Source of the DNA: Acorus gramineus
Taxonomy: Eukaryota > Streptophyta > Magnoliopsida > Acorales > Acoraceae
Direction: 5' to 3'
Assembly (NCBI GenBank): GCA_030737835.1
Contig: CM060850.1
Coordinates: 2,011,788 to 2,075,787, forward strand
Length of the DNA: 64,000 nt
Shown: positions 2,609-54,327 of the stretch, piece after piece
Position numbering within the stretch: position 1 is the first letter of the stretch
Layout of the letters: every line of letters begins with the position of its first letter
Notes under the pieces: generated by a model
Seen by the model: the letters and a program-made list of their open reading frames with translations, nothing else
Database searches by the model: none
What the model was told of the DNA's origin: nothing
Translations under genes and position numbers: made by a program

Positions 2609-5600
2609 ATGGAGCGGAAGGTGGGCATAGTAGGAGCTGGCGTGAGCGGCCTCTTGGCGTGCAAGTACGCCTTGGAGAAGGGCCTCAACCCGATCGTCTT
2701 CGAAGCTGACCGAACCATCGGAGGCGTCTGGGCTCACACGGTTGAGTCGACCAGGCTCCAGACACCCAAAGCCTTCTACAGCTTCTCCGACTTTCCCTGG
2801 CCCGCCCACGTCAAGGACGATTTCCCCACCACCCACCAAGTCGTGGACTACCTCGACTCGTACGCGAGCCGCTTCGACCTCACCCGACACATCAAGTTCA
2901 ACACTCGAGTCCTGCAGATCGAATACCTCGGCGTCGGAGACGACGAGATCCTCTCTTGGGATCTCTGGTCCGGCGCCGGCGAGGCCTTCCATCCTGGTGG
3001 CAAGTGGCAGATCACAGTCCAAGACACCACAGCTGATCTACAATATGTACAGGTGGGGGTGGTGGGGGTGTCTGGATCCTATCAGATTTAGTCAGTCTCA
3101 AGTGTTCTTATGTTTTGAACTGTTAGATGTACGAAGTGGAGTTCGTAGTACTGAGCGTGGGACGCTTCAGTGGACTCCCGAACGTGCCGAGTTTTCCCCC
3201 AAACGGAGGCCCGGACGTGTTCCGTGGGGAGGTGATTCACGCCATGGACTACTCGAACATGGACAACGATGACGCGGCGAGATTCGTGAAGGGGAAACGC
3301 ATCACGGTCGTCGGGTTTTTGAAATCGGCGCTGGACATCGCGGCGGAGTGCGCGAGAGCGAATGGTTATGATAAAGAAGATTGTTATGTGTTTATATGTT
3401 TGGATTTGTGGTTTTGAACTGGTTGATTTTTTTTGTTGATTTTGATAGGGGTGGAGCGACCGTGCACGATGATATGCAGGACCCCGCGTTGGCTGATACC
3501 GGACTACAATGCCTGGGGAGTCCCTTTCGTGATGTTCTACCTTAGTCGATTCTCGGAGCTTCTCGTTCACAAGCCCGGTGAGGGTGTCTTGCTTGCGCTG
3601 CTTGCGAGCTTCTTATCTCCTCTGGTGAGATATTTATGACCCGAGTCTGGATCCAATCAGGTCTAGTACTTACTATTGGCATCGAACTGCATATCGTATG
3701 AGTGTGTAGTTCGATTGATATACTGTGTAGTTCGATACTGATAGTATTGATGATACCTAAGCTTGATTAGATCCAGACTCCTATGACTCCTCCAACACAC
3801 AGTTTTAACTTTTTTTATTATCTAATGGGTAGCTATAAACAGAACAAATTTCTATTCGTCAAACTATGCAATTATTATTATCATTAATATTTGGATATTT
3901 GCTTATTGATGTATCATGTTTTCGTAATAGAAATTAGACTTAGTTATTGTTGCATATAAAAGTTTAATTTAGCCAGTTTTTTTTTTTTTTAAATTAATCA
4001 TCAGAATACATATTAGAAACACAGTTTAATTATCTTCTTATTTTTATTGTGTTAATCTTATATCATGTTCGAATACAAAACTCTTGTTGACTATTTTGTC
4101 AGGACATGAACATTGTTACTATAACTGTTCTTCTCATTTAAAATAACTTTTGAAAATAATTCTTGAGAGATACCACTTTTTGTTTACAAACTTAAAAATT
4201 TATTTTTCTGTCTTTCTGCTTCTATCAAAGAGGTGATAGTTGAGGGTGATTGGAAAAATGTTTGATGTAAATATAATTTTTTGTTATAACCCAATCTCTG
4301 AAGGTTGTATTTAATAAACGTTGTCCGTGACTGGTGAATGTGAAACAAATGGTTTTGGTTGGTTGAGGCTGGCCTACAGTACTAAGTACCAACGAGCATC
4401 TTCTATAAATATAAATAAATTCTTAAATGGGGACCATTTTTTTTTTTTTTTCATAAATGGGGACCATATTTGTCTGTACACAACGTGATTTTTGTCAGAG
4501 ATCTAAACGAAGGATGTCCCAATATCCCACGTATCCCTCTGAAAGTGAGTGGATGAAACTTGTGGAATTGAATTAGAACATTAATATTTTTACTAAATGC
4601 ATGACCTAGTCTGGCTTCCTCATTTTTTATTTATGGAAACCAGTGCTATGTTTTACAAATGAATTTTTAAATGTTATGTAGGACAATAATAAAGCTAAGT
4701 TGTCAATTATAAATAAACAAAATTGAAATTTAAGAATAAAAAAATACATCTGCATAGTAGACGGTGATTACATTTTTTTTTTTTTTTAAATTCACACAGA
4801 TGTGAGGACCAGTTTTATAATTAAAATTGATTCACTACTGATTTTAAAATTAAAAACAGGGTTAAAAATAAAAATTGTCCCATGTTTCGTGAAGTCTAAA
4901 CTAATGAAGAATGCCATGCAACATTGTCATCTAGAGATGGTTTTTCTCCAAATTCGTGGAGAGCTACCTCTTATGGACATTTCCATTGAAGAAGTACGGC
5001 GTGATACCGAACCATAGATTCGCCGAAGCCTTCACATCTTGTCAGCTCGCGATACTGCCAAAGAATTTCTACGAGATGGTCGAGGAGGGGAGCATCGTAT
5101 TGAAGAAGTCAGAGTCTTTCAGGTTCTGCGAGAAGGGTGTGATTGTAGATGGAGACGGAGAGGACGCGCTGCTGGAGACGGATCTCGTGATCCTCGCCAC
5201 CGGTTACAAAGGCGATCAGAAGCTCAAAGACATCTTCAAATCCGCTGCTTTTGGAGAGGCGGTGGTGGGGACATCAGTTTCAACTGTTCCGTTGTATAGG
5301 TACGTGTTTCTATTGACACTTTTAAAAAGTCTCCTTTGAATATGTGTTCAGTTGTTTGGAAAGCAAAAAAATTCTAAACAGATCCAAATACCTTTTAATG
5401 TTTTTAGCTTATCTTCTTACTTTTTTTTACTCAAACATACGGTGACACATTGTTTTTCAAAGCTTGAAAAGGTAAGATTTTAATAACCCCACCGGTTACT
5501 AAGCCTTTCCAAAATCATCAATATTTTTAGGTTTATAGTTTTAATATTTTGATTTTAAGTGTAAAATCAGAAGGAGCCTTTCCAAAAAAAAAAAAAAATT

Positions 5601-8010: not shown

Positions 8011-8179
8011 TTTATTATGTTTTATGTGAATGATATTGGAGTATATTTCATTATTGGAAAAATATCCAAAAAAAAATTATCTGAGTATTGGAAATATCAA
8101 ATTATTCATTTTTAAAAATTGTGAATAGAAAGTCTTTTTTTTTGCAATTTTAGAAAGTGAAATGACTTGATTACTGTTA

Positions 8180-8552
8180 TGTAGTCTTAGGGATGCAACT
8201 TGGGTATGGTTGAACCCGAACCCAACGACTTGAACCCGATTTTTACATGGGTTGGGTTGACCAAATCGGGTTCGGGTTCGGGTTAGCCAATTCGGGTTGA
8301 CTCATAAATCGGGTTGGGTTCGGGTTGGCCTCACTCATAACCCGACCCAACCCGAACCCGTAAATTAATAGTTAAAAAAAAATTTCATGGTTGTTCATTC
8401 TGTAGCTTCTAATCTAGGTAGTCCAAATTTTAGGTAAACCTAACTAATCTTACATGTTGGGTCGGGTTGATTTATTTAATTTGCAAATTATGTTAGAAAT
8501 TCGGTTTGGGTTCTGGTTGACCACCCGCCCGAGTTGCAGCCCTATGTTGTCT
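8180..8552. mobile_element. hAT-type MITE, copy B (element 8188-8544)
   Basis: This 357-bp relative of the element at 593-1064 lies in the opposite orientation. It starts TAGGGATGCAACTTGGG and ends GAGTTGCAGCCCTA. Flanking octamers TGTAGTCT and TGTTGTCT match at 7 of 8 positions. It shares the distinctive inner block 'gtaaacctaactaatctta' with copy A. It is shorter than copy A in the subterminal repeat zone. Confidence 0.8.
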
Positions 8553-8763: not shown

Positions 8764-10128
8764 TTAGAGCATCTCCAAAAGACTTAAAACCCACCTCCAA
8801 AAGCCTCCTCACACCTAGGTCTGTCAACGGATCAGGTCCAAGTCGGGTCAAGGTGGACCCGGACCCGACCCGTGGCAAAACCCGCGGCGGGTCATTGGAA
8901 ATGTGAACCCGGAACCGAATATGGTTAATAAAAAGAAAAGGGAGAGCTCTTGAATTTGTTTGCCTTATCATCCTATTAGGAAAATTTTGTATAAAATATT
9001 AGTTTTGAGTTTTCTAAACTGGTGTCTTGACATTATATTTGAACATATTTTTATAAAATTCAAAACAATAAACTCTAACATATAACATTCGAAGCAAACA
9101 AAAATCTAAACAATAACAATGAACTAAAAGGGATAGCTAATGGTTATTTATGTCGCAAAGTAAATGTTCAAAACAATAAACACTACATATTAACTTAAAT
9201 AACATTCAAAACAATAAACATTAACATATTAACATAAACAATAAACATAAATCATGCAACAAACCAATTAATTATACAAATTCAAAAGTTAATAAGGCCT
9301 GTCAACGGATGAGTTTGGTTGGTTATGGGTTATGAATTATAGGCTTGGTTATGGACTTATGGATACAAAAATGAGTTAAAACTTATACTTGTAATTTGAT
9401 AAATAAGAAAAAAAATTATGGATCAACTAATACTAATAGTTTTATAATATATGAGCATATATTAATAAAATAGTTGGATCTCAAGTCCAATGGGTCGGGG
9501 CAGGGTGACCCGGACCTGACCCGTTTGTATGTTCGGGTCCAAATCAGATCGAGTATATTACATATGTAATCGGGTCCGGGTCTGGACCCAACCCGTTGAC
9601 AGGCCTACTCACACCCCTCCCTCACTACATTTTTCCCTAAGACACTCTCTATGGGTGGAGAACCAAATTCATTCCTTATTTCCATAAAAGACTATATTGT
9701 CTCATTTCCCTTCTTTCATTTTTTTTGTTTCTTTATGTGAGCATGTTAGGTATTTCCATACATGAAATTTTTTCTATTCATTATTAATAATTATTTTTAT
9801 TATAAATAATTTTTTGTTTATTTTTCAGGTTTTTGAAAATTTTAATTTACTTTTAATTAATTTATATTCATTATTAATAATTTGTATTTAAATAATTTTT
9901 TTTCCAAATCAATATTTGATAGATTTTTAAATATATTTTTATTCATTTGATATTTGGACATCTTGTAATTTATAGATATGAATTGCTTATTTGGAATGAA
10001 AATAAGGTAAAAATGAGGAGGCTTTTGGACTTTGGAGTGATAAAAAAAAAGGCCCTCCATGTCATAGGGAGTCTTTTTTTTTCTAACAATGTAAGGAAAC
10101 ATTTGGGAGGTTGTTGGAGATGCTCTTA
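8764..10128. mobile_element. Tourist/PIF-Harbinger-type MITE (8767-10125), host of a nested hAT element
   Basis: The ends GAGCATCTCCAA and TTGGAGATGCTC are exact inverted repeats, flanked by TTA on both sides (8764-8766 and 10126-10128). A 3-bp TTA target duplication is the PIF/Harbinger signature. Without the nested element at 8816-9607 and one copy of its target duplication it would be about 560 bp. It has no transposase. Confidence 0.85.
8808..9615. mobile_element. Nested hAT-type MITE (8816-9607) with perfect 8-bp duplication
   Basis: CTCACACC is repeated exactly at 8808-8815 and 9608-9615. The ends are TAGGTCTGTCAACGG and CCGTTGACAGGCCTA. Subterminal zones are rich in GGGTCCGGGTC words. 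An extra inner end, AAGGCCTGTCAACGG, begins near 9295, so the element looks composite, with a third generation insertion or an internal end duplication. No coding capacity is seen. Confidence 0.85.
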
Positions 10129-10597
10129 GGAAAAAATAAAAATACCCACAAAATCTCTTAAAAGTTAGACATACCCAAATTAACCACTTTTAAAAATTAT
10201 ACAAAAAAGTCTAATTTCACAATTTTAAAAACTAAAAAGACAACCATACCCTTATGTAATTAGATGCTTCAAATGCCCCTAACCTTGTTAGATTATTCCA
10301 TACCAAAGTCGTATTTTTACTATAAAACCACAATTTCTCTCTATATGACCCAAACCAATCCCTTTCTCGCGACTGTTAAAAAAAAAAAAAAAAAAGCCTA
10401 AACCCTAGCCGTTGATTTGCACTTCGTATTTAGATAACATTTTTCTTATAATAAATTATGAATTTGATTTTTTTTTTACATAATTTGATCTAAGAGATTG
10501 TTGTTTAAATTTTTTTCATATGTTTTGTTATTATATATCATATTGTGTGTTTTTAATATCTTATTTTATGTTTTCTTTTCATTTTTTAGTGTGTATG

Positions 10598-12490
10598 ATC
10601 ATAATAGGGAGAATGACAAAATAATCTCATAAAAGTTAAAAATACCAAAATCAACCACTTTTTAAAATTATACCCAAAGAAGTCTCATTTTACAATTTTG
10701 GAAATGTAAAAAGTAAACTACCCTTATGTAATTATTGCCTCTAACCCTTGCTAGGTTTTTCCATATCTCTTAAATTTGTTAAATATTTTACACCTCTTAA
10801 TTTTATTAAAATATTTCACACATTCTCATGTAGATCTTTTTTTTACTCTCAATTATTTGTCATTAGGTGGATTTTGTGAGATATATACCAATATAATTTG
10901 AGTTTTTGATGATGGACTCCTTTAGATGTTGATGCTTTCATTAAATAAAAAATAGATATGTGCCAATGACACCTTAAAAATATGTAAATAAAGATGCAAA
11001 ATACTATACTATCATCTGCTGCATTGGGGCATAACACATATTCAAATTACAAACTATAATTATATATAATGAAAAATGATAAACAACATAAGGAAAGATA
11101 CAAGAAGCACAATTTAAAAAAAAATTCAAACAACACATAATTTGATCAAAGAGATCAAAATATCTAAAACAAAATCAAATTCATAATTTATTATAGGAAA
11201 AATGTTATAGAATAAGAAGTGCGAACTAATAAGACCTACGGATAAGAGGAATCATTGGTCTCTCTTTACATGTTTGCTTGTTATGCCTAAACTCTTTACA
11301 TACTCAACATTGAATTTTTTTCTTGTTTGTACTTCGAGACTCGATCATCCATTATGTGGCCGACCGTTCCTTAGAGCAAGTGGAAAAAAAAACTAACTAA
11401 TTCATCCTCTACGCGCTTCCAGTGAGTGTGATCACGAGTACCATGAATAATTTAATTTGTCCATAGTTTGAAGACAGGTATCCACGGTGAACCAATGCTC
11501 ACAATAATCCTCAGTATCATATCCACCACTTGTAATTGCAGGTTTGCAACTGCGTGCGAGCAGGGATAACTGCCTTACTTGAAATCCTGCTGCTTCTTCC
11601 ATATTTTTTGAAATCTAATTCATAAAATTTTATCAGTGATTATATCTTTCATTTTCAAACTTAAAATTTTATTAGTGATCTTACTTGAAATCCTGCTGCT
11701 TCTTCCATATTTTTTGAAATCTAATTCATAAAATTTTATCAGTGATTATATCTTTCATTTTCAAACTTAAAATTTTATTAGGGATCATGTCTTTCATTTT
11801 CAAACCTTTCAAGTGTCGTTTATAGTTGAAACTCGTCAATTTCATCCTCACTACTTCAATAAAGCTAACAATTGATAAAGATGGAGCCTCTAGCAATAAA
11901 GCAATGATACTCTCACAAATGTTTGTAGTGTCGAGCTCATACCCATTCATAGGAAAGTGCACCCATGTCCAATGTTCCTTTGGCACGTTATTCATCCATT
12001 TGTAAACATTCTCGGATTGCAATTTAATATTCAAATAAAAAAGAAAAAAGATATATCATTATAGATATATAAATCTGTCATGAACAATAAACACAAAAAA
12101 ACTCCTCCAAAATCAAGACTCAAATAAAAATAGAGAGATATTTAAAGAAATATTATGAATAATTTTAGGATTACCTCAATGTGATAGACATCCATTGCAA
12201 CAATTCAAAGTATCACACGGCTATGGTTTTAATTTATTTTTTAACGGGTAGGGAGAAAGGGGATTGATGTGGGTCATATAAAGAGAAATTGATCTTTTGT
12301 AGAAAAAATAGGTTTTTGGTGTGAATAACCTAACAAGGGTTAAAGATCTAATAATTACATAAGGGTAAATTAGTCTTTTGAGTTTCCAAAATTGTGAAAT
12401 GAAAATTTTTTTGGTATAATTTTAAAAAGTGACTTATTTGGGTATTTTTAATTTTTAGGAGATTTTTCTGGTCATTTGCCCATTATGATA
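10598..12490. mobile_element. Inner Mutator-like element (10607-12481) with transposase relic
   Basis: Termini GGGAGAATGACAAAATAATC and, inverted, GGGCAAATGACCAGAAAAAT define 1875 bp. The flanking 9-mers ATCATAATA (10598-10606) and ATTATGATA (12482-12490) match at 7 of 9 positions. The interior (about 11200-12034) holds a decayed Mutator transposase on the minus strand, so this was once an autonomous or near-autonomous copy. Confidence 0.75.
11400..12034 (-). pseudogene. Mutator (MULE) transposase C-terminal relic
   Basis: On the minus strand the reading from 12034 to 11726 contains NNVPKEHWTWVHF and DTTNICESIIALL, which match the MULE transposase motifs 'W...F......NN.SES'. Downstream, near 11575-11547, SYPCSHAVA matches the SWIM zinc-finger core (CxH). 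Then, in another frame, DTEDYCEHWFTVDTC matches the conserved tail. The frame is broken between these blocks. A 104-bp tandem duplication (11577-11680 and 11681-11784) interrupts the relic. The family would have cut and pasted the element; this copy cannot make a working enzyme. Confidence 0.8.
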
Positions 12491-12652
12491 TATAATTTGA
12501 ATTTGTATTATGCCCCAATGCAACAGGTGATATTGTAGTATTAAAAAACTTTATTCACGTATTTTTATGGTGTCATTGGCATATATCCAATTTATAAAGA
12601 AGCATCAATATTTAAGGGAGTCCATCATAAAAAATTCAAATTATATTAGCAT

Positions 12653-12903
12653 GGTAATCTATTTAGTTTTGGATTTATGGACCGTACTTCTTACGCCAAA
12701 ATCTGTTTATACCCGAACCGTGCAGAAGAAAGCAATCTTTTCTCTAACACTAATAAATGGAAATCTTGTATCGACTAAGCGAAATGTGCCGTTATGACCT
12801 TGATGTGTAAACTCACTTCGTTCCAATTTGTTACCGGCCCCAAACAGGTTTTTTAGAAGTTTTTTATAAAGATAACAAAAAAGCCAGGGTTTACTATGGC
12901 ACA
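12653..12903. other. Unidentified insertion of about 250 bp in the outer Mutator arm
   Basis: Alignment with the sister arm at 10607-11060 shows extra DNA here. It is bounded by the direct octamer ATTAGCAT (12645-12652 and 12904-12911), though the sister arm resumes only near 12940. The minus strand reads RSEFTHQGHNGTFRLVDTR within a 65-codon frame. I do not recognise the protein, and an organellar or retroelement origin is possible. Confidence 0.4.
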
Positions 12904-14094
12904 ATTAGCATACACTTCCTAATGGTCGCCTTAAGACATAGAGATATCACAAAATCCACATAATGACAAATAATTTAGAGTATAAAAAAGTTCTACATGA
13001 GAATGAGTGGAATATTTAACAAAAACAAGAGGTGTGAAATATTTTAACATAGTTAAGAGGTGTAGAATAACCAAACAAGGGTTAGAGGCATGTTAAGGAT
13101 ATAATTATATAAGGGTAGATTAGTCTTTTTAGTTTCTAAAATTATGAAATAAGATTTTTTTTTTTAGTATAATTTTTAAAAATGACTGATTTAAGTATTT
13201 CTAACTTTTAGGAAATTGTTTTGGGTATTTTCACTAGATAAAATAATTTTAAAAAATTCTTGTAACTTAGAAAATGACAATTTTGACAATATTAGCATTT
13301 TTATAGCATACTTAAAAAATTTTAAAAACATATGAACTCACATTCAAATAAAAATAATTTTTACATTTATATTATTTTTCAATTTGGTGATGGTTTGAAA
13401 AGTTTCAAATATGTGAGAGATTTTTTAAATTATAAGAGTTAATGTCATTTACATTATGAGATTGTTAAAGGAGACTTTTATAAGTAAAATTATTAAAAGA
13501 AGCCCTTTTGGGTATATTGCATATTTTTAGAAGACTTTTGGGTATTTTTCCTTTTAAATTTTAACATATATTGTTTATTTTATGCGCGTATGTTTACACA
13601 CAAAACTAAATAATCATTAAATCATAAGATATTTATCTTATCTATGATATATATCTATTTAATATAACTTAATAATTAAAAATAAAAAATAAGACTGGAG
13701 ATATGATTTTTTGTTTTGAATAATTTAAAAGTCGAACTCGTGATAACATGTCTTGAACTCAAGTTAATTATTTTTTTTTATTTTTTAGGTTAAAAAAATG
13801 GGAAAATCCATATAACCCCCTATAATCTCAATATATCCATATAATCCCTTGTAAATACACCATAAATGCAAATAACCCCTTGCAGTTAAAAATTCTTTAA
13901 CAAAGTTGAAATATTCCATACATATTTTGTTTTTAAAGCCATGATTAACAAATATGTATATTTTTAACCATCTGAAAATAACCAATATTTTTTTAAAAAA
14001 AAACTCTAAAGGAGAGTAAAATTGGAAATATGAGAGTTTTTTTTAAGTGCTAGCTGTATTTCAGGGGGTTAAATTCTTATTGGCAAACGTAAAA

Positions 14095-18460: not shown

Positions 18461-19272
18461 TTTTCAAAAGAGAAAATGATAGAAAAAAGTCTCTCAAAAA
18501 TAAGAAATACCCAAATCAGTCACTTTTTAAAATTATACCTAAAAAAGTCTCATTTCACAATTTTGAAAACACAAAAGACTAATCTACCTTTATGTAATTA
18601 GATCCTTAACATATTCCATACCTCTTAACTTTATTACAATATTTCACCCTCTTAATTTTGTTAATATATTTCACACATTCTCATATAGAATTTTTTTTTA
18701 TTCTAGATTATTTGTGATTAAGTATATTTTATGAGATATGTGTAATATAATTTAAGTTTTTTATGGTGAACTCCATTAAGTGTCGATACTTTCTTTAAAA
18801 AAAAAGGATATATACTAATAACACAATTAAAATATGTGAATAACTAAGTAAAAAAAAATGTGCATAAACATTTAGAATATTAAAATATCATCTCCTGCAT
18901 TAGGGCACAACACAGGTTTAAATTACATATTATGATTATAGAAAATAAAAAATAATAAACAATATCAGGTAAGATGTGTGTGTGTGTAAGAAACACACAA
19001 TATGATATAAAATAGCATAACCTCTAATGGGATTAATTTGGGTCATATAGAAATACATTGTTGTTTTATAGAAAACATATGTTGGTGGAATAACCTAGCA
19101 AGGGTCGGAGGGATATTAAGAATCTAATTATATAAGGATAAATTAGTCTTTTATGTTTTTAAAATTGTAAAATAAGACTTTTTTAAGTACAATTTTAAAA
19201 AATGATTAATTTAGATATTTCTAACTTTTTCACATAATTTTTTTTTATTATTATTATTTTCCCTTCTCAAAA
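18461..19272. mobile_element. Compact Mutator-like MITE (18470-19263), sister of the 10.1-13.2 kb elements
   Basis: This 794-bp element has flanking 9-mers TTTTCAAAA (18461-18469) and TTCTCAAAA (19264-19272), matching at 8 of 9. The left end shares 'aaatacccaaatcag.cac' with the element at 10607, and the right end shares 'cctagcaagggt' with 12320-12340. It has no transposase. It shows the normal arrangement of the two different ends, which is the key to reading the nested pair upstream. Confidence 0.85.
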
Positions 19273-42810: not shown

Positions 42811-45074
42811 TCAAAACATGCCAAGACTGAGAAGGCCTAGATTAAGTACCACAAAGACATGCCCCCAACCCAATCCATGACGGGAACCCGCAGACGTGCC
42901 ATTACAGTACGACGTGTTCGCAACGGTTCCTGTAATAATCATCTGGTTGTTGTAGCCCTCGTAGGCACACGTGGTGGAATTGCAACCCACGGTGAACGTC
43001 ATGCCAAGGCTGAGGTTACCGTTGCATTGCATCGACGGACACTGTGCCCATACCGACGTGTTGCGTGTGGTGAGGCCTTGAACGGGTGCGCATGCAAGCC
43101 TATAAAATGAAAAAAAAACATGCATTTGTTGGTGTTGGTGATTGTTGGTGTAAAGAAAGTGGAGGGTGGGGAGGCTTTACTGATAGGAGGAGGAGCAGGA
43201 GCACTGGACGCAGTCGTTGGCGGTGATGGCGTAGCTTCCGTTGGGGACGAGGAGGTTGTGGTCCATGGAATTGTTTAGTATGGATGATGCGCAGGCTGTT
43301 TGTGGCATTCATTCAAACAGAAGATAGACAGTCAATTTTCTTTTTTGGATTTTATTGGGGTGGGCTCACCAAATTTTGGGTAGAAATAACCTTGCTCGAT
43401 TCCTCTCGGATATTAAATCTCAACCGTCTAATAATAACATTAGCAAAATTCTAAGCCCCTATCGCCTATCGGGCTATAAGAAATGGATCAGGGTGAATAG
43501 ATTAGGAAAAAAAAGCTTACTTGTTTATAAGAAATAAATGAGTATGATTATAGTAAAATAAATAAAAATATACTATTGTTCCATATCCTTTGTAATTGTC
43601 TAATTACAACTGATTTGATTTGTTACATTGATATATAAGATATTTAGATGTCAAATTACATGTTATCATTTATTATTATATCATTTTTTATCTTTTAAAA
43701 TTTACTAATATTATATAAATTATTCATGATCAATTAAGGGTGTGTGTTGTATTAAATGAAAAGTAAAAGAAAAAAAAATTAAATCATTAAAAAATATAAT
43801 GTTTGTGTCAAATAAGAAAAAAAAACAAAATTTTCATTATTTTTCATCTCATACTGTCTCATTAAAATATATAAAAAAATAAATTTCCTTCTCTGTATAT
43901 GAGAATTTAAAAGAAAATAAAATAATTTTTATCTCATGCACCAACACCATTAAAATTGATAAAAAAATATATATTTTACTTTCCTCAACTTTCCTGAGAC
44001 TTTTATTTTATTTTATTTTATTTTTCTTTTAAATTTGTACACATACACAACGTAAACAATAAAATTTTATTTTTATATGGTCAAACCAGAGTAATGAAAA
44101 ATACAACTAAATGAAAATGAACAGCTTGACTTTTAAAATCAGTCACAGAAAACCTCTCTGTCATAAATAAATAAAAAAAACCCGAAAATGAGTTATCTGT
44201 ACAAGTATAATTATTTATATTAAAATAATTGTCTGAATAGTCTCCATCGGTGCACAGAGAGGATAACATGATTTTTAAATATTTTTACTGATATAAAATT
44301 AAATAAGTTTTGTATAGCATAGCAATATAAAATAACTAAGAGGGTATACAAGCAAAAAGAACGATCTACAGTTAAATCTACTGCAGTAATGCTGAATGGG
44401 GGAAAGGTTAGGGACGGACCTCTGAGGGGGACGTCGAGGATCTGACCGGCCTGGAGCTTCTTCGGGCCGTCCATCCCGTTGAGCCTCAACAGCGTGTCCT
44501 CCCTGGTCCCGAATGCCGAGGCGATCTGCGCGACCGTGCTCCCGGCAGCCACCACGTGTCCGTAATGGACGGTCGGGAGCCCGTCCACGTCGTCGCAGCT
44601 GCAGGGGAGCGGGATCCGCAGCTTCTGCCCCAGCTGGATCTTGTTCGGGTCGGCTATCCCGTTCGCCGCCGCGATTTCCTGGTACTTCACGAATCCCGAG
44701 AAGATCGTGCGCGCGATGAAATCGAGGCCGTCCCCCTTCTTCACCACGTAGACCGGCTCGCGGTCCGAGGCGCCCGTCCCGTTCGAGCACGCGCAGGGGA
44801 TGGGGACGCGGACGGGTGACCCCGCGGGGACGGATTGGTTGGGGGACGCGGAGAGGGGGAGGCCGTTCGCGCCGAGGAGGGAGAGGAGGGAACGGACGCC
44901 GAAGAGGGACTGGACGGAGGAGAGGGTGGTGGAATTCGCGGGGGTGTAGCCTATCATGGACTGACACGTGGCGGTGGGGGAGGAGGTGCAGCTGAATTGG
45001 ACGGCGGAGGAGTAGGATAAGGAGGCGGCGAGGAGGAGAAAGAGGCGGAGCATCGTAACCGGACTCGTCTCCAT
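42811..45074 (-). CDS. CEBiP/LYM2-type LysM receptor-like protein, copy 1, 3 exons
   Basis: Exons 45074-44420, 43295-43181 and 43099-42811 give 1059 nt (352 aa), the size of OsCEBiP/LYM2. Residues 1-24 are a signal peptide (METSPVTMLRLFLLLAASLS). The ectodomain has CxC pairs (CAC at 94-96, then CSC) bracketing LysM modules; the clear ones are VYVVKKGDGLDFIARTIFSG and VHYGHVVAAGSTVAQIASAF. The C-terminus ends in a hydrophobic tail without charged residues, typical of GPI anchoring, and there is no kinase. Relatives bind chitin oligomers at the cell surface and signal with the LysM kinase CERK1. A W-box core (TTGACC) lies about 95 bp before the ATG, which would suit WRKY control. The 81-bp second intron is absent from the related exon at 38555-38961. 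The upstream frame extends beyond METSPV, but the signal peptide fixes the start. Confidence 0.92.
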
Positions 45075-45167
45075 TGATGGTGGTTTCTGGGATTCTTTTT
45101 TGGTGGGGTGGATGTTATATCGGTGGTGGGGAGGGGTTTTATTGTAAAAATGTGAGTGTTGAACTCT

Positions 45168-45173
45168 TTGACC
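45168..45173. promoter_or_regulatory. W-box core upstream of LysM copy 1
   Basis: TTGACC is conserved at 54083-54088 in copy 2. It may lie in the 5' leader, since a TATA-like ATATATTTATT (minus strand) is near 45340. The sequence is short and could be chance. Confidence 0.3.
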
Positions 45174-46752
45174 GTTGGAGGCCCAGCTAAGCGAATGGAA
45201 GTCCGTGGTGTCGGAGAGTGACTGAAGTGCTGTTCGAGGTTGTGGGCCCGACGAGGGTTCCATCTGCACCGTCCACAAAGTGCTTTTGGACGATCAGACG
45301 GTGTAGATGAGTTTACTCTCTCAAGTCTTCGTCGGCTCATAATAAATATATTATCATCATACTGATGACTTGAATTCTATGAGCCACGTGTGGACTAACG
45401 TCAATGGTAATTTACATATAGTTTTTTTGCATAACACGTTGTAAGATTTTTTGGTATACTGTATTCTTAGCCAGAGTTAATCAAATGAAATATTCGCAGA
45501 ATATTCATCATCTGTTAACATAAGTTTAACACAGTGAATTATTTGAATTTTTATAAATGTTTTCAGGGAGTTATATGGATTTCAAGAAAAGTCAGAAGAT
45601 TATATAGATTTTGGATAGTTTACATGGAGTTATTTGGATGTTTCCTTTTTTTTGTTTATGTGTTTTTAGGGTTTTGAATTGAAATGGGGTTTTCAGTTTT
45701 TGTTATTGAAAATCTAATCCAAATTTTGGTCAGGAAGAGAAATATGTTTTGATCTGAGCATTCGGTCTTGTTTTTCGATGTGAATAACTGCTCAGGTGAA
45801 TAGTTCTGTGATGATCACTTGTAATCTTTATTTAAGATATGAAAGGTCTAAAGTTTTCTCTAAAAAAAAAAAAAAAAGTTATGTTATATTTGGTGTGTTA
45901 TGCTTGTTTTAAGTGGTATATTGTATAAATTGGGAGGTAACTTCTTGGGGTTTATAATTTATTTTTCGGATTTATTTTTCTGAATTTCTATTGAAAGTGT
46001 TAGTTTCATTTTTTGGGGCTTTTGGGATATAGTTTCATTTTTTGGGGTTTTTGGGATAATATTTTTTGTTTAGTAGAGAATTGTTTTAGTTAGTGGGTAT
46101 CATGTGAATTAGGTTGTTTTGTATGTTATTGGATATGCGGATTTAATTTATTTGATTTTGGAAATGTGTAATAGGCTCTATGTGTGATAATGGTGGGGTT
46201 ATTCGAGATGATTTTGTGTTTATTTATTTATTTTAAAGTGAGTTTTGTGTGATTGAATGTGTGTGAATCTATTTTTTTTATTTTTCGGAAGATTTGGGGA
46301 CTGTTATGTATAATAAATTTTAGGTCATTGTGTGTGCTTTTCATGTGTTCTTTTTGTATCTACAATTACTACTATCAAATTAAATGTGTGTGAATCTTAT
46401 AGGCAATGTTGTAAATGTAACGTTTTTACATGCAAATCTAATTGTTTTGCTATCAACTCTTTGTGGAGTATGCCTTTAATTTCTACTCTTCCAATTGTGT
46501 GTGTTGCTTATTTCCATCAATGCCTATTAGGCTATTACAACATTACTTTCAATCACAGATCTTGTTATCTATGGAGTTCAATTTTTTTGGGTTTCCATAG
46601 TGTGTATTGTTCATGCTCTTGCTTTATTTTGATGTGGAGGATTTGTACATGCGTTTTACATATGGGCTTTACTGGTTTCCATTAAGGACATGAGATTCAT
46701 TTGTTCTTACAATGTCAGTTTCCATGTTTTTTTTAAGGGAAATGTAGGATTT

Positions 46753-49700
46753 ATTTGTGTTAGATTATATGTGTTATCTTATAATGTGTGTAGTGTATTA
46801 CACGTGTAACTCCTAGATATTTGTATATATAAGTGGATTAACCCCTAAGTGGAATACAAGGATTTCTATTATTTCATTCTTTCATTGTAACATGGTATCA
46901 GAGCCACCACCTCAAAAACCCTAATTTTTTTTTGTTGGAATCCTTCCGTCGCCGTCGTGCCTCTGCCGTTGCCGTCGCTGTCGTGCCCCTGCCATCACCG
47001 TCGTCGTCGTGCCCCTGCCGTCGCCGTCGCCGTCGTGCCCCTGCCGTCGCCGTCGTCGTCGTGCCCCTGCCGTCGCCGTCGCCGTCGTGCCCCTGCCGTC
47101 GCCGTCGCCGTCGTGCCCCTGTCGTTGCCGTCGCCGCCATTGCCGCTGCCGTTGACGCGCGCCGCCCTGCCGTTGCTCGCGCAGCCTTGCCCTGCCGCGC
47201 CCAGCCCTGTCCTGCCCGGTGCCCAGCCGCGCCCAGCCCTGCCCTGCCCAGTGCCCAGCCGCGCGCCCTGCTGCACCCTGCCGCGCCACGTCCAGCCCTG
47301 CCCGGTGCCCTGCCGTGCGCCCTGCTGCGCCCTTGCCGCGCCGTGCCCTGCCGCGCCCAGCCCTGCCGCGTGCCCTGCCCGGTGCCCTGCCCGGATTACT
47401 CGGGATCTGTCGCGCCCGACAGATCTGCCCGGGCACCGCTGATCCTGCCCGGATTTCCCGGGATCTGCTGGGGACAGCTCCTGCCAGGCTGTATCGAGCG
47501 TTCCGGATCATCTCGCGCACCCGACCCGGCACCCAACCCGAGCTCTCCCAGCATCAGACCCGGGCACTCCCAGCATCCGACCGGATCCGCGAACCCGGGT
47601 CCTCCCAGCATCCGACCCGGATCCGTGAACCCGGCCCAGCAACCCGGATCCGCGAACCCGGCCCAGCATCCGACCCGGATCCGCGAACCCGGCCCTGGAC
47701 GCGACCCGGACGCGACCCGAGTCTGCCCTCAGGTAGCCTCCGGCCGCCCTCTGCCGCCTCCGGCCGCCTCCTTGAGACTTCAAATCACTAAATCGGTCAT
47801 AACTTCCTCTCCGGAAGTCCGATTAAGGTGATCCAGGAGTCCATTTTGCTCGATTTTTCGTGCTCTACGTCCTCGTCTGCTTCTGATCCTCATCCGAGTG
47901 GTTCTGCACAATGTCAGAAACCAACGGCAACCCTACTCTTCCGACACCGGCGGCTTCGAAGGTATCTCGTCAGTCTACTTCGTCATTTCTCTATGAGGGC
48001 ATCTTGGGGGCCGCTCCTGCTACAAAAGACAACGACCTTCTAAGCAGCATTATCAACCGAAAGGCCGAGGACATCATCTTCCTCCTGTTGCCGCTGCGAC
48101 TGCTACTTCGATTGCCTCCATTCAGTCACACTCGGATATGCTTGTCCAGATCAGTCAGCGCCTAGACCACCTGATTCTGCAGCAGTCACTTTCTGGTGCT
48201 TCTACTCCCTTTGCCTTGTCTTCTACTATGGGTACTCCTGCTTATTGGATTTTTTATTCGGGTGCCTCACATCACATGACTCCTGATAGTTCTATCCTCA
48301 CTGCATGCTCACCTGCACCCTCACACCTCCCTTCGATTCATACTGCTAATGGCTCTCCTTTAGTCATCACGAGTGTGGATCGATCACCACCACATCCCAC
48401 CCTACTGGCCGCCTTTCATTACCATTTGTTTTGCATGCTCCTGAGCTTTGCATGAATCTTGTGTCTATTAGTAGATTGTGTGATTCTGGATTCACCGTTA
48501 CCTTTACCTCTTCTGGGTGTTCTGTGCAGGATCCACGTTCAGGGCAGAGGATTGGTGTTGGTCATCGGATTGAAGGACTGTATTATGTGGAGTATCTTTA
48601 TCTTCATGTACCTGATCCCTCAGTTTTCTGCGGCACTGTCACCTCTGATACTGACTTGTGGCATAAGAGGTTAGGCCATGTTTCTGAATCTCGTCTTAAA
48701 GACCTTATTAAGTCTGGTGATTTAGGTCATGTTTCTTTCTCTCCTCTTTCTGTTTGTGAGGGCTGTAAATTAGCCAAACCTGTTGCTACTCCATTCCATT
48801 CTAGTAATCATCAGTCCTCTATTCCATTTGAGCTTGTTCATTCTGATATCTGGGGTCCTTCTCATATCACGTCTAGAGTGGTTTTTTGTATTATATCAAT
48901 TTTCTTGATGACTATTCTCTCTTTACCTGGATTTATTTATTGCGTCATCGATCTGAGGTCCCAAAGATATATGAGGTCTTTACCACTATGATTCACACCC
49001 AGTTTCAGACTCGTATCAAAATCTTTAGGTCTGATTGTGCTCGAGAATATATTTCTTCCACGATGCGTTCTCTTCTTCAATCTCATGGCACTCTCTTTCA
49101 GCAATCATGCCCTTATACTCATGAGCAGAATGGTGTTGCTGAAAGAAAACATCGCCATATTCTTGAGACCGCTCGTTCCCTCTTACTTTCTTCTTCAGTC
49201 CCCAGCACATACTGGGCTGAGGCTGCTCTTCTATCTGTTCATCTTATCAATATCACTCCCTCTTCTGTCCTCTCCGGTATGACTCCTCATGAGCGCCTTT
49301 ACTCTTCCAAACCTGATTATAGTAGACTTCGCACTTTTGGATGTACTTGTTTCGTGCTTCTCCCTCCTCATCAACGCACTAAGTTGGCCGCTCGGTCAGT
49401 TAAGTGTGTATTCTTGGGGATTAGTTTTGAACACAAGGGATATCGCTGCTACGATCCTATTGGAGATCGTTTTTGGATAGCTCGTCATGTGTCATTTGTC
49501 GAAGATGTTCCCTATTTTTCTTCTACACCCACTGCCTCCTCTCCTCCGGTGCCTTCTCCTGTTCAGGCCTCTCCTATTGAGTCTCTACCTCTTCTCGGGC
49601 CGTCTGTTCTGCTTGAGCCCACTCCTAGTTCTGTTCTCCCTGAGTCTCATCTTGGCATTCCCACTGCTGACTCTCCTGGTTCTTCGTCTCCTCTTCACAC

Positions 49701-51643
49701 TTCTGCAGTCAACTCCCATGGTCCTCCCTATTCTCCTCTTATTGTGTCTCCGCTTTCTCCTTCCGCAGATGACTCCGCTGGTACTCCGTCTTCCACGGCT
49801 AACACACCTCCCTCTGATGTGGATCCTCGTCCCTTGACTCGCTACCCTCAGCGTGAACGTCATCCACCTGATCGTTTCAGTTTTGACTCTGGACCACTTG
49901 ACCGATTTGGCTTTGCATCAGTGAGTACCTATTCTCCAGAATTTCAGGCCTATCTCACCGCTATACATGCCCATCGTGAGCCCCGATCTTATCGAGAGGC
50001 AGTCGAGTACCCTGAGTGGCAGCAGGCCATGGCTGAGGAGTTTCAGGCGTTTGAGCAGACACAAACCTGGGATGTTGTTCCCCTTCCGGATGGTGTTACC
50101 CCTATCAGCTGCAAGTGGATTTTCAAGATCAAGCATCGCCCTGATGGTTCCATTGAACGACATAAGGCTCGTCTTGTTGCCAGAGGTTTCACTCAGGAGT
50201 ATGGCATTGACTATGAGGAGACCTTTGCTCCTGTTGCTCAGATGACTACTGTTCGCACCCTTCTCGCTGTTGCTGCTGTTCGTCGCTGGCCTCTCTTTCA
50301 GATGGACGTGAAGAATGCTTTTCTTCATGGTGATTTATCTGAGGTTGTTTATATGCAACCACCTCCAGGTCTCAGCACTCCTCCTCAGCATGTTTGTCGT
50401 CTTCGGCGGGCTATATACGGACTGAAACAAGCTCCTCGTGCCTGGTTTGAGCGTTTTCGCAGTGTTATTCTGACAGCTGGTTTTGTTGAGAGCCACCAGG
50501 ACCACTCTATGTTTGTGCGATCCTCATCGCAGGGGCGGGTAATCCTTCTTCTGTATGTTGACGACATGATTATAACTGGCGATGACTCCGCTGGTATTAC
50601 TCGGGTCAAGAATCACCTCAGTCGACAGTTTCAGATGAAAGATCTTGGTACTCTTCGCTACTTCCTTGGTCTCGAGATTGCACAGAGTGATCGTGGGATT
50701 CTGCTTTCTCAACAGAAGTATACAGCTGACATTTTAGAGCGTGCTGCCCTCTCCGATACCCGCAGTGCGGATACTCCTCTCGAGCTTAATGTGAAGCTTC
50801 GTCCTACGGATGGTGAGCTCCTCTCAGATCCTAAGACAGATCGTGGGTCAGCTTGTGTATCTCTGCATCACTAGACCTGACATTGCTCATGCCGTCAGTA
50901 TTGTTAGTCAGTTTGTCTCGGCTCCTCGATCAGTGCATTATGGTGCTCTTATGCGAATTCTTCGATATTTGCGTGTACTATCACTAGATCGATCTATCTG
51001 TCATCCTCTTCGACTCTGGTTCTCAGGGCTTACACTGATGCTGATTGGGCTGGAGACCCGACCACTAGACGCTCCACCACTGGTTTCTGCATATTTCTCA
51101 GAGATTCTATCATCTCTTGGCACAGCAAAAAACATGAGGTTGTTTCTCTTTCCAGCACTGAGGCTGAATATCGAGCCATGGCTATCACCACCAAGGAGAT
51201 TGTTCATCTCAGACGTCTCTTGGTGGATCTAGGAGTTACTATGACTGGTCCTACTCCTCTTCACTGTGATAACCGGTCTGCTATTCAGATTGCTAGCAAT
51301 CCGGTCTTTCATGAGAGGACCAAACACATTGAGATCGATTGTCACTTCGTTCGTCAGCACTTTCTTGCAGAGACATTATCGCTTCCGCATATCTCCTCTG
51401 CTGAGCAGCTTGCTGATTTCTTTACGAAGTCACATCCAATTCCTCGATTTCAGTTTCTTCTTCGCAAACTCACTTTGTATGATCCACCGTGAGTTTGAGG
51501 AGGGCTGTTAGATTATATGTGTTATCTTATAATGTGTGTAGTGTATTACACGTGTAACTCCTAGACATTTATATATATAAAAGGATTAACCTAAGTGGAA
51601 TACAAGGATTCCTATTATTCCATTATTTTATTCTAACAATTTG
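46753..51643 (+). mobile_element. Ty1/Copia LTR retrotransposon (46758-51638), broken
   Basis: LTRs 46758-46892 and 51506-51638 (about 134 bp, TGTTAG...) are flanked by the 5-bp duplication ATTTG (46753-46757 and 51639-51643). An initiator-methionine primer site, TGGTATCAGAGCC, follows the left LTR, and a purine-rich tract precedes the right one. The parts run in Copia order: leader/gag zone, protease (near 48250), integrase (48600-49600), reverse transcriptase (50020-50800) and RNase H (to 51490). It is interrupted by roughly four breaks, so it is a fossil. The LTRs differ at about nine sites, which suggests an age of a few million years under a typical plant rate (inference). The short LTRs suggest an Ale-like lineage, low confidence. 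The matching site in unit 1 (42725-42729) is empty. Confidence 0.92.
46940..47150. repeat. GC-rich tandem repeat in the Copia leader/gag zone
   Basis: Repeats of a 15/30-bp unit built from 'gccgtcgccgtcgtgcccct' are followed to about 47760 by degenerate 'ccgcgcccagccctgccc' and 'gatccgcgaacccgg' repeats. GC content is far above that of everything around it. The Arg/Ala/Pro/Gly-rich frames across it on both strands are repeat artefacts. Confidence 0.85.
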
Positions 51644-51724: not shown

Positions 51725-53989
51725 TCAAAACATGCCAAGACTGAGAAGGCCTAGATTAAGTACCACAAAGACATGCCCCCAACCCAACCCATGACGGGAG
51801 CCCGCAGACGTGCCATTACAGTACGACGTGTTCGCAACGGTTCCTGTAATAATCATCTGGTTGTTGTAGCCCTCGTAGGCACACGTGGTGGAATTGCAAC
51901 CCACGGTGAACGTCATGCCAAGGCTGAGGTTACGGTTGCATTGCATCGACGGACACTGTGCCCATACCGACGTGTTGCGTGTGGTGAGGCCTTGAACGGG
52001 TGCGCATGCAAGCCTATAAAATGAAAAAAAAAAAAACATGCATTTGTTGGTGTTGGTGATTGTTGGTGTAAAGAAAGTGGAGGGTGGGGAGGCTTTACTG
52101 ATAGGAGGAGGAGCAGGAGCACTGGACGCAGTCGTTGGCGGTGATGGCGTAGCTTCCGTTGGGGACGAGGAGGTTGTGGTCCATGGAATTGTTTAGTATG
52201 GATGATGCGCAGGCTGTTTGTGGCATTCATTCAAACAGAAGATAGACAGTCAATTTTCTTTTTTGGATTTTATTGGGGTGGGCTCACCAAATTTTGGGTA
52301 GAAATAACCTTGCTCGATTCCTCTCGGATATTAAATCTCAACCGTCTAATAATAACATTAGCAAAATTCTAAGCCCCTATCGCCTACCCGGCTATAAGAA
52401 TGGATCAGGGTGAATAGACTAGGGAAAAAAAGCTTACTTGTTTATAAGAAATAAATGAGTATGATTATAGTAAAATAAATAAAAATATACTATCATTCCA
52501 TCTCCTTTGAAATTGTCTAATTACAACTGATTTGATTTGTTACATTGATATATAAGATATTTAGATGTCAAATCACATGTTATCATTTATTATCGTATCA
52601 TTTTTTATTTTTTATAATTTACTAATATTATATAAATTATTCATGATCAATTAAGAGTGTGTTTGTATTAAATAAAAAATAAAGAAAAAAAAATTAATCA
52701 TTAAAAAATATAGTGTCTGTGTCAAATAAGAAAAAGGGATAAAATTTTCATCATTTTTCATCTCATACGGTTTCATTAAAATATATAAAAAATAAATTTT
52801 TTTCTCTATATATGAGAATTTAAAAAAAAATAAAATAATTTTTATCTCATGCACCAACACTATTAAAATTGATAAAAAAAAATATATATTTTATTTTTCT
52901 CAACTTTCCTTAGACTTTTATTTTATTTTATTTTATTTTTCTTTTAAATTTGTACACATACACAACGTAAACAATAAAATTTTATTTTTATATGGTCAAA
53001 CCAGAGTAATGAAAAATACAACTAAATGAAAATGAACAGCTTGACTTTTAAAATCCGTCACAGAAAACCTCTTTGTCATAAATAAATAAAAAAAACCTGA
53101 AAATGAGTTATCTGTACAAGTATAATTATTTATATTAAAATAATTGTCTGAATAGTCTCTGTCGTTGCACAGAGGGGATAACATGATTTTTAAATATTTT
53201 TACTGATATAAAATTAAATAAGTTTTGTATAGCATAGCAATATAAAATAACTAAGAGGGTATACAAGCAAAAAGAACGATCTACAGTTAAATCTACTGCA
53301 GTAATGCTGAAGGGGGGAAAGGTTAGGGACGGACCTCTGAGGGGGACGTCGAGGATCTGACCGGCCAGGAGCTTCTTCGGGCCGTCCATCCCGTTGAGCC
53401 TCAACAGCGTGTCCTCCCTGGTCCCGAACGCCGAGGCGATCTGCGCGACCGTGCTCCTGGCAGCCACCACGTGTCCGTAATGGACGGTCGGGAGCCCGTC
53501 CACGTCGTCGCAGCTGCAGGGGAGCGGGATCCGCAGCTTCTGCCCCAGCTGGATCTTGTTCGGGTCGGCTATCCCGTTCGCCGCCGCGATTTCCTGGTAC
53601 TTCACGAATCCCGAGAAGATCGTGCGCGCGATGAAATCGAGGCCGTCCCCCTTCTTCACCACGTAGACCGGCTCGCGGTCCGAGGCGCCCGTCCCGTTCG
53701 AGCACGCGCAGGGGATGGGGACGCGGACGGGTGACCCCGCGGGGACGGATTGGTTGGGGGACGCGGAGAGGGGGAGGCCGTTCGCGCCGAGGAGGGAGAG
53801 GAGGGAACGGACGCCGAAGAGGGACTGGACGGAGGAGAGGGTGGTGGAATTCGCGGGGGTGTAGCCTATCATGGACTGACACGTGGCGGTGGGGGAGGAG
53901 GTGCAGCTGAATTGGACGGCGGAGGAGTAGGATAAGGAGGCGGCGAGGAGGAGAAAGAGGCGGAGCATCGTAACCGGACTCGTCTCCAT
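51725..53989 (-). CDS. CEBiP/LYM2-type LysM receptor-like protein, copy 2, 3 exons
   Basis: Exons 53989-53335, 52213-52099 and 52013-51725 have exactly the exon lengths of copy 1 (655, 115 and 289 nt; 352 aa), with the same signal peptide, LysM modules and GPI-type tail. Visible protein differences are few: Gly to Arg in HVVAA(G/R)STVAQ, Gln to Leu in PKKL(Q/L)AG, and Gly to Arg in MQCN(G/R)NLSLG. The Copia fossil lies about 90 bp beyond its stop codon and could have altered its 3' untranslated region or polyadenylation. The promoter W-box and TATA-like region are kept. Both copies look able to encode full proteins, so redundancy or dosage gain is likely. Confidence 0.92.
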
Positions 53990-54327
53990 TGATGGTGGTT
54001 TCTGGGATTCTTTTTTGGTGGGGTGGATGTTATATCGGTGGTGGGGAGGGGTTTTATTGTAAAAATGTGAGTGTTGAACTCTTTGACCATTGGAGGCCCA
54101 GCTAAGCGAATGGAAGTCCGCGGTGTCGGAGAGTGACCGAAGTGCTGTTTGAGGTTGTGGGCCCGACGAGGGTTCCATCTGCACCGTCCAGAAAGTGCTT
54201 TAGGACGATCAGACGGTGTAGATGAGTTTACTCTCTCAAGTCTTCGTCGGCTCATAATAAATATATTATCATCATACCAATGATTTGAATTCTATGAGCC
54301 ACGTGTGGACTAACGTCAAAAGTCCAT

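Follow-up and report, generated by a model that had tools for sequence, protein, structure and literature searches.

Inverse nested insertion of a Mutator-like element into a member of its own family in Acorus gramineus

The Mutator-like elements (MULEs) of maize and rice are hosts of other transposable elements, and over a third of the coding-MULEs hold nested elements (Zhao and Jiang 2014, PMC3903597). In MULEs with multiple terminal inverted repeats (TIRs) the internal TIRs lack a recognisable target duplication, and nested insertion was not considered to be their origin, although it was kept as one possibility if the duplication had been lost later (Ferguson and Jiang 2012, PMC3310237). 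In the Mu killer locus of maize, according to Skibbe et al. (2012, PMC3440606), about 1.3 kb of mudrA are present as an inverted duplication, together with two copies of TIRA. Self-insertion has also been a topic of work on artificial transposons (PMC4744444). The locus analyzed here lies in a stretch of 64,000 nucleotides of Acorus gramineus DNA (contig CM060850.1, positions 2,011,788 to 2,075,787, forward strand; hereafter the window, to whose positions all window coordinates refer). It consists of an outer MULE on the minus strand that is opened by an inner relative of the same family on the plus strand, and it is a well-resolved new example of an already known, ordinary nested-insertion event.

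The comparison of the nest region with itself revealed two inverted pairs of segments, A/A' and B/B'. The A/A' pair joined 10150-10393 with 12466-12227 (78%), and the B/B' pair joined 10617-10882 with 13223-12944 (79%) and 10890-11060 with 12647-12482 (81%). The top inverted match within 10136-13234 scored 237 bits, as compared with a maximum of 48 bits in 100 dinucleotide shuffles. In addition, the left part of a second, uninterrupted element at 18470-19263 was colinear with B and its right part with A', which identifies B as the natural left end and A' as the natural right end. The order A, B, transposase, A', B' proposed in the initial annotation, and its decoding through the element at 18470, were thus reproduced: A/A' is not the sole inverted pair, and both B and B' match the left part of 18470-19263. 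Segment A is also colinear with 11118-11225 of the inner element.

The outer element is limited by positions 10136 and 13234 and flanked by the 9-mers TAGGAAAAA and TAGATAAAA; the inner element is flanked by ATCATAATA and ATTATGATA, the junction 9-mers that had been suggested to be a Mutator target duplication. In agreement with this suggestion, seven of nine letters match in each of the two pairs. Both elements possess long TIRs, with 81.5% identity for the inner (10598-10761 versus 12489-12323) and 79.8% for the outer one (10139-10304 versus 13231-13059).

The outer element, read on the minus strand, runs from 13234 to 12482 and resumes at 10606 to end at 10136. Its first part closes with TATCATAAT, its second part opens with TATTATGAT, and both 9-mers align to 18928-18936 of the uninterrupted element. 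In a family alignment of 38 rows (36 of the 39 loci fetched from the genome, the inner element and the element at 18470, three loci having no row; 41 entries in all) the two halves of the outer element share exactly nine columns. All 38 rows are continuous through the insertion point, with a one-base gap in locus L043, and several of them, for example L067 and L033, diverge on one side. Since the commonest family letters at the target are TATTATGAT, one of the duplicated 9-mers has kept the family letters and the other has changed at two places. Outer halves of the same family therefore join at one site with a 9-bp target duplicated, and A and B' are, as the initial annotation had it, one reversed element opened by the insertion of B...A'.

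A number of observations weigh against this structure. Neither target duplication is exact, both being conserved at seven of nine positions, and the inner 9-mer is near-palindromic, so that its likeness could partly be one of inverted rather than direct repetition. As compared with the family tip pattern, the inner left tip has seven ungapped mismatches (being one base shorter) and the right tip two; the terminal GGG is retained at both inner ends. The outer right tip lacks the terminal GGG (ATA is found instead), and the outer left tip reads GTG. Finally, 17 of the 35 scored family entries, including the reference element at 18470, remained below 7/9 at automatically placed ends. The 17 entries below 7/9 at the exact offset result from a wrong placement of ends by the automatic end-finder, in the reference element and probably in other copies too; re-read from its tips, the reference element gave 8/9.

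The same order of segments might be produced by inversion or recombination of neighbouring elements in opposite orientation, or by template switching in the repair of an excision gap, with no insertion involved. Suitable substrates for recombination do occur, family members lying near each other elsewhere in the genome both in the same orientation (C1:3836563/3837425 and C112:85166/86021) and in the opposite one (C7:11914748/11915629). However, a recombination joint would leave neither a 9-bp direct duplication at the TIR tips nor gapless outer halves, and both are observed; the same pattern is found at another site, locus L081, with a duplication conserved at nine of nine positions. A rearrangement in place of an insertion is rejected on the alignment of the empty site and is hardly credible as an account of this locus.

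The locus is explained with near certainty by two cut-and-paste insertions in succession, both by members of one MuDR-type family, and by subsequent decay. The order of the insertions, the target duplication and the orientation of the two copies are established. In the first step the outer element, which carries no transposase coding sequence, inserted in minus orientation with duplication of 9 bp (10127-10135/13235-13243). An AT-rich site within it, with the family letters TATTATGAT, later became the target of a second family member, internally deleted and with only a C-terminal transposase remnant; this entered in plus orientation, duplicated the 9 bp and split the outer element. Both were presumably mobilised by the transposase of a relative elsewhere, as transposase sequence is held by loci L031 and L033. 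Decay would account for the changes at two of nine positions in both duplications, the 296-bp insert in B' and a 106-bp tandem duplication in the remnant, to which no relative order is assigned. By one inverse self-insertion, a repeat order A, B, A', B' that seems impossible is resolved. The coordinates of the features are listed in Table 1.

Table 1. Features of the nest and of the reference element, in window coordinates.
Feature	Position	Strand	Basis or remark
Left 9-bp target duplication of outer element (TAGGAAAAA)	10127-10135		7/9 letters identical to 13235-13243
Right half of outer element, A (TIR about 10136-10304)	10136-10597	-	Inverted match to 12227-12466 and 19026-19262
Left 9-bp target duplication of inner element (ATCATAATA; TATTATGAT in outer orientation)	10598-10606		End reading, empty-site alignment
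Inner Mutator-like element (B ... A')	10607-12481	+	Ends, duplications, family copies
Inner left TIR and start of B	10607-10765	+	Inverted match of 10598-10761 to 12489-12323
C-terminal transposase remnant (after MULE domain into SWIM/C-terminal piece), interrupted by stops	11201-12040	-	tblastn of four L031 pieces, six-frame translation, Pfam of L031/L033 pieces
106-bp tandem duplication in transposase remnant	11574-11785		99% identical
Scar; longer relatives L031 and L033 have about 1.6 kb here	12033-12082		In L031 including DBD and MULE domains
Inner right TIR, end of A'	12323-12481	+	Self-comparison
Right 9-bp target duplication of inner element (ATTATGATA)	12482-12490		End reading, empty-site alignment
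Left half of outer element, B' (TIR about 13060-13234)	12491-13234	-	Inverted match to 10617-11060 and left part of 18470-19263
296-bp insertion in outer B' arm	12648-12943		Not present in B or in 18470-19263
Right 9-bp target duplication of outer element (TAGATAAAA)	13235-13243		Pairs with 10127-10135
Uninterrupted 794-bp family member (reference); empty target site 18928-18936	18470-19263	+	Flanks TTTTCAAAA / TTCTCAAAA, 8/9

A genome search with the 296-bp insert of the B' arm returned the insert itself and one 35-bp match only, and its identification as a known repeat was rejected for this reason. The Rfam scan of the window at gathering scores gave no match. Further degraded TIR fragments resembling the family are present on either side of the nest, at 8041-8183 and 13461-13551. 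The two might be the ends of an older element enclosing the nest, its degraded TIRs lying at about 8056 and 13551; such an element is not claimed, since the flanking 9-mers agree by eye at only five of nine positions.

The ungapped identity was 84% between B and B' and 81% between A and A' (Kimura two-parameter distances, K2P, of 0.18 and 0.22, respectively). The A/A' alignment contains 121 gap columns, with an identity of 83.5% if only its TIR side is considered; for B/B' the distance was 0.181 in the pairwise and 0.213 in the multiple alignment. Kinship was assessed in 36 rows, comprising 31 of the 39 fetched loci, the inner and outer elements, the element at 18470 and both elements of L081; eight loci with no single match spanning the left part were left out. 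The outer element ranked 17th of 35 in distance from the inner one and the inner element 12th of 35 from the outer one, at a K2P of 0.21. The median distances were 0.22 for each of the two and 0.19 over all pairs. An origin of inner and outer elements as recent sister copies was rejected, as each is nearer to other copies, and they were probably distinct lineages already when the insertion occurred. The long terminal branches and the duplications conserved at 7/9 also argue for much decay since the insertion.

The inner element was annotated initially as containing a transposase. Transposase sequence is indeed present, but only as a C-terminal remnant with stops. The remnant was matched in tblastn solely by those pieces of L031 that lie past the MULE domain; the DBD_Tnp_Mut and MULE pieces of L031 gave no match to the inner element. 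All six reading frames over 11200-12260 contain stops, and Pfam gave nothing for the 109-amino acid open remnant. About 1.6 kb of L031 and L033, which in L031 comprise the DBD and MULE (catalytic) parts, are missing from the inner copy between 12032 and 12083. An autonomous MULE was thus rejected for want of an intact transposase gene, and the inner element, judged by its sequence, is an internally deleted non-autonomous derivative. The four transposase pieces of L031 gave no match to the outer halves or to the element at 18470 (E up to 0.01).

The family was sampled in the genome (398.6 Mb) as the 39 fetched loci plus the inner and 18470 elements of the window, giving 41 entries, in 35 of which both ends were found. 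The length was 0.66-0.85 kb in 30 of the 35 measured entries. In 18 of the 35, one of which is the inner element, the 9-mers flanking the entry at the exact offset agreed at seven or more of nine positions, as compared with 3.8% for swapped flanks; the duplications that accompany insertions of the family are of 9 bp and AT-rich. When up to two mismatches were allowed, the tip pattern GGGAAAATGACNAAAAAAATCTC matched the genome 333 times (100 of the matches being listed individually) and the reversed control once. Since the pattern is satisfied by 27 of the 70 sampled tips, a rough number of about 430 elements was derived; seven DNA searches gave 997-1448 candidates at first look. The copy number is thus in the hundreds, with TIR tips common to the copies, and its exact value is uncertain.

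In the longer relatives L031 and L033 the transposase sequence is divided among several open pieces, the breaks between which may be introns or frameshifts. Pfam matches in L031 were DBD_Tnp_Mut (3e-16), MULE (2e-14) and SWIM (6e-6); three of its four pieces, and the one scanned piece of L033 (MULE), were above the cut-offs, and these domains are not found in the window copies. The 9-bp duplication, the long inverted repeats and the combination of DBD_Tnp_Mut, MULE and SWIM place the family among the MuDR-type elements (TIR-MULEs), in agreement with its initial assignment as Mutator-like. An 850-bp interruption of L031 was examined as a third self-nest and rejected, being a GGGTCGGGT-rich repeat; this repeat occurs in L031 at 3514-4366, in the window at 8817-9608 and in L051. 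A young group of copies of about 770 bp was also noted around L042, to which the 39 further top-scoring loci show 90-96% identity; this points to a rather recent mobilisation.

Locus L081 (C57:2380230-2381950) contains, at its positions 13-1564, a second inverse self-nest that is independent of the first. The outer pieces lie at 13-288 and 1063-1564 and enclose an inner plus-strand element at 289-1062; the duplication TTTCTTATA (280-288 and 1063-1071) is the exact one mentioned above. The arms are 87% and 89% identical, with exact runs of up to 40 nt, and on the family map the target lies about 50 bp from that of the window nest. By its coordinates, C11:11060336-11061882 is a nest in the same orientation (outer 1-190, inner 2-771, outer 183-771), and C6:18152941-18154419 is an abutting pair in the same orientation that may be a further nest, located in a TIR. 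Family members in the same orientation about 85-110 bp apart were observed at C1:3836563-3838187, C112:85166-86704 and C4:28786855-28788051. Abutting and close pairs could reflect local hopping or a shared taste for AT-rich targets.

These loci hint at a preference of the family for inserting into or beside its own copies, by self-targeting or local hopping, in which case nests would be a property of the family. The inverse nest L081, the direct nest at C11 and the abutting pair at C6 were all among the best 40 loci per list (lists of 40 scored loci each, with some loci shared), random insertion predicts 0.4-4 nests genome-wide for 430-1500 copies, and the closely spaced pairs point in the same direction. 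On the other hand, the window nest prompted the search and is no independent find, the sampled loci are the best-scoring ones and not random, the search may favour multi-copy loci, and the copy number is uncertain. The 118,688 bases flanking the 39 fetched loci (L053 and L059 being counted whole) yielded only one extra TIR fragment resembling the family, that of L054, and a common taste for AT-rich targets would yield the same pattern. Such a preference is therefore considered rather unlikely.

The initial annotation further proposed that the inverse insertion creates a large hairpin of the kind that triggers silencing of Mutator. As stated, this was not supported. The arms cross in the order A-B-A'-B', so that complete pairing of B with B' precludes complete pairing of A with A', and no one simple hairpin is possible; no exact run longer than 16 nt is present in the A/A' or B/B' arms of the window nest. 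Folding in silico nevertheless uses B/B'. In the predicted plus-strand fold B pairs with B' over stretches of 136, 97 and 48 pairs, and a further 90 pairs join part of A to the TIR side of B'; the longest B/B' helices, G-U pairs allowed, are of 30 bp (plus) and 23 bp (minus). The predicted energies were -816.7 (plus) and -843.3 kcal/mol (minus) in the real order, and -748.1 and -723.4 kcal/mol, respectively, with the inner copy flipped in silico; 12 plus-strand shuffles gave -577 ± 13 kcal/mol. According to these models the inverse orientation adds a fold-back, with 333/279 inner-outer base pairs as compared with 0/1 in the flipped control. Since the flipped control lies far below the shuffles (-748 versus -577), single elements already reach stable folds by way of their own TIRs.

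It could be imagined that the nest is a functional silencer, a read-through transcript giving double-stranded RNA over B/B' and small RNAs that direct methylation of the family TIRs, as was first proposed for Mu killer. The real order is 69 (plus) and 120 kcal/mol (minus) more stable than the flipped one, with the inner-outer pairs and helices given above, and the TIR tips to be targeted are common to hundreds of copies. Against this stand the 84% and 81% identity of the crossing arms, their lack of exact runs over 16 nt and the good folding of the flipped control. Moreover, as the outer halves are without match to the four L031 transposase pieces, the inverted arms consist of terminal and subterminal sequence; and since inner and outer elements are not closest kin, near-identical arms may never have existed. 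For Mu killer itself, antisense transcripts are favoured over read-through hairpins as the agent (PMC3440606). A silencing function of the window nest is accordingly regarded as very unlikely.

With its longer exact runs and higher arm identity, the L081 nest is younger and a better candidate for a hairpin source. A broader scheme would have the family inserting repeatedly into inverted copies of itself, the resulting nests, L081 more than that of the window, serving as hairpin loci that send small RNAs against the shared TIRs and limit the spread of the family; we give it a similarly small chance. If the nests were small-RNA sources, nests of different age and arm identity could be compared within one family, which has at least two inverse and independent ones in this genome. 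The idea that self-insertion creates silencers has in Mu killer a single maize locus, and this genome would offer a test of it.

Elsewhere in the window, two near-identical open frames were found about 9 kb apart, at 44220-45376 and 53135-54291; LYK-type LysM domains were identified in the first of them. Between the two, at 48877-50871, lies a retrotransposon frame (RVT_2, rve). Together with a strictosidine-synthase-like gene, these make up a plant-like gene content.

No report of a MULE inserted inversely into its own family was found in a search by title and start of abstract, although this does not prove that none exists. A citrus MULE with an inverted insertion (PMC4334395) was considered as a precedent and rejected, since it is presented there as a deletion-linked event and not as a nest. 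In common with the nests of Zhao and Jiang (2014), the present locus has a MULE as the host of an inserted element; there, the inserts are classed as RNA or DNA elements, and the section on nested insertions does not discuss the inverted insertion of the same family. It shares with the multiple-TIR MULEs of Ferguson and Jiang (2012) extra family TIRs within an element, and differs from their description in that its internal pair has a duplication. With Mu killer, as Skibbe et al. (2012) describe it, the nest shares inverted Mutator-family sequence with TIRs at one locus. However, the arms of Mu killer duplicate mudrA transposase sequence, whereas no inverted duplication of transposase coding sequence is present at the window nest, whose outer copy has no transposase match and whose arms cross and are 84% and 81% identical; the parallel drawn in the initial annotation is thus retained only as an analogy. 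The agreement is closest with the MuDR-type MULEs of plants, which have the same 9-bp duplication, TIRs of about 150-170 bp and, in the longer family member, DBD_Tnp_Mut, MULE and SWIM domains. From these the nest differs in nothing of kind, its two copies being internally deleted and decayed members with TIR pairs about 80% alike.

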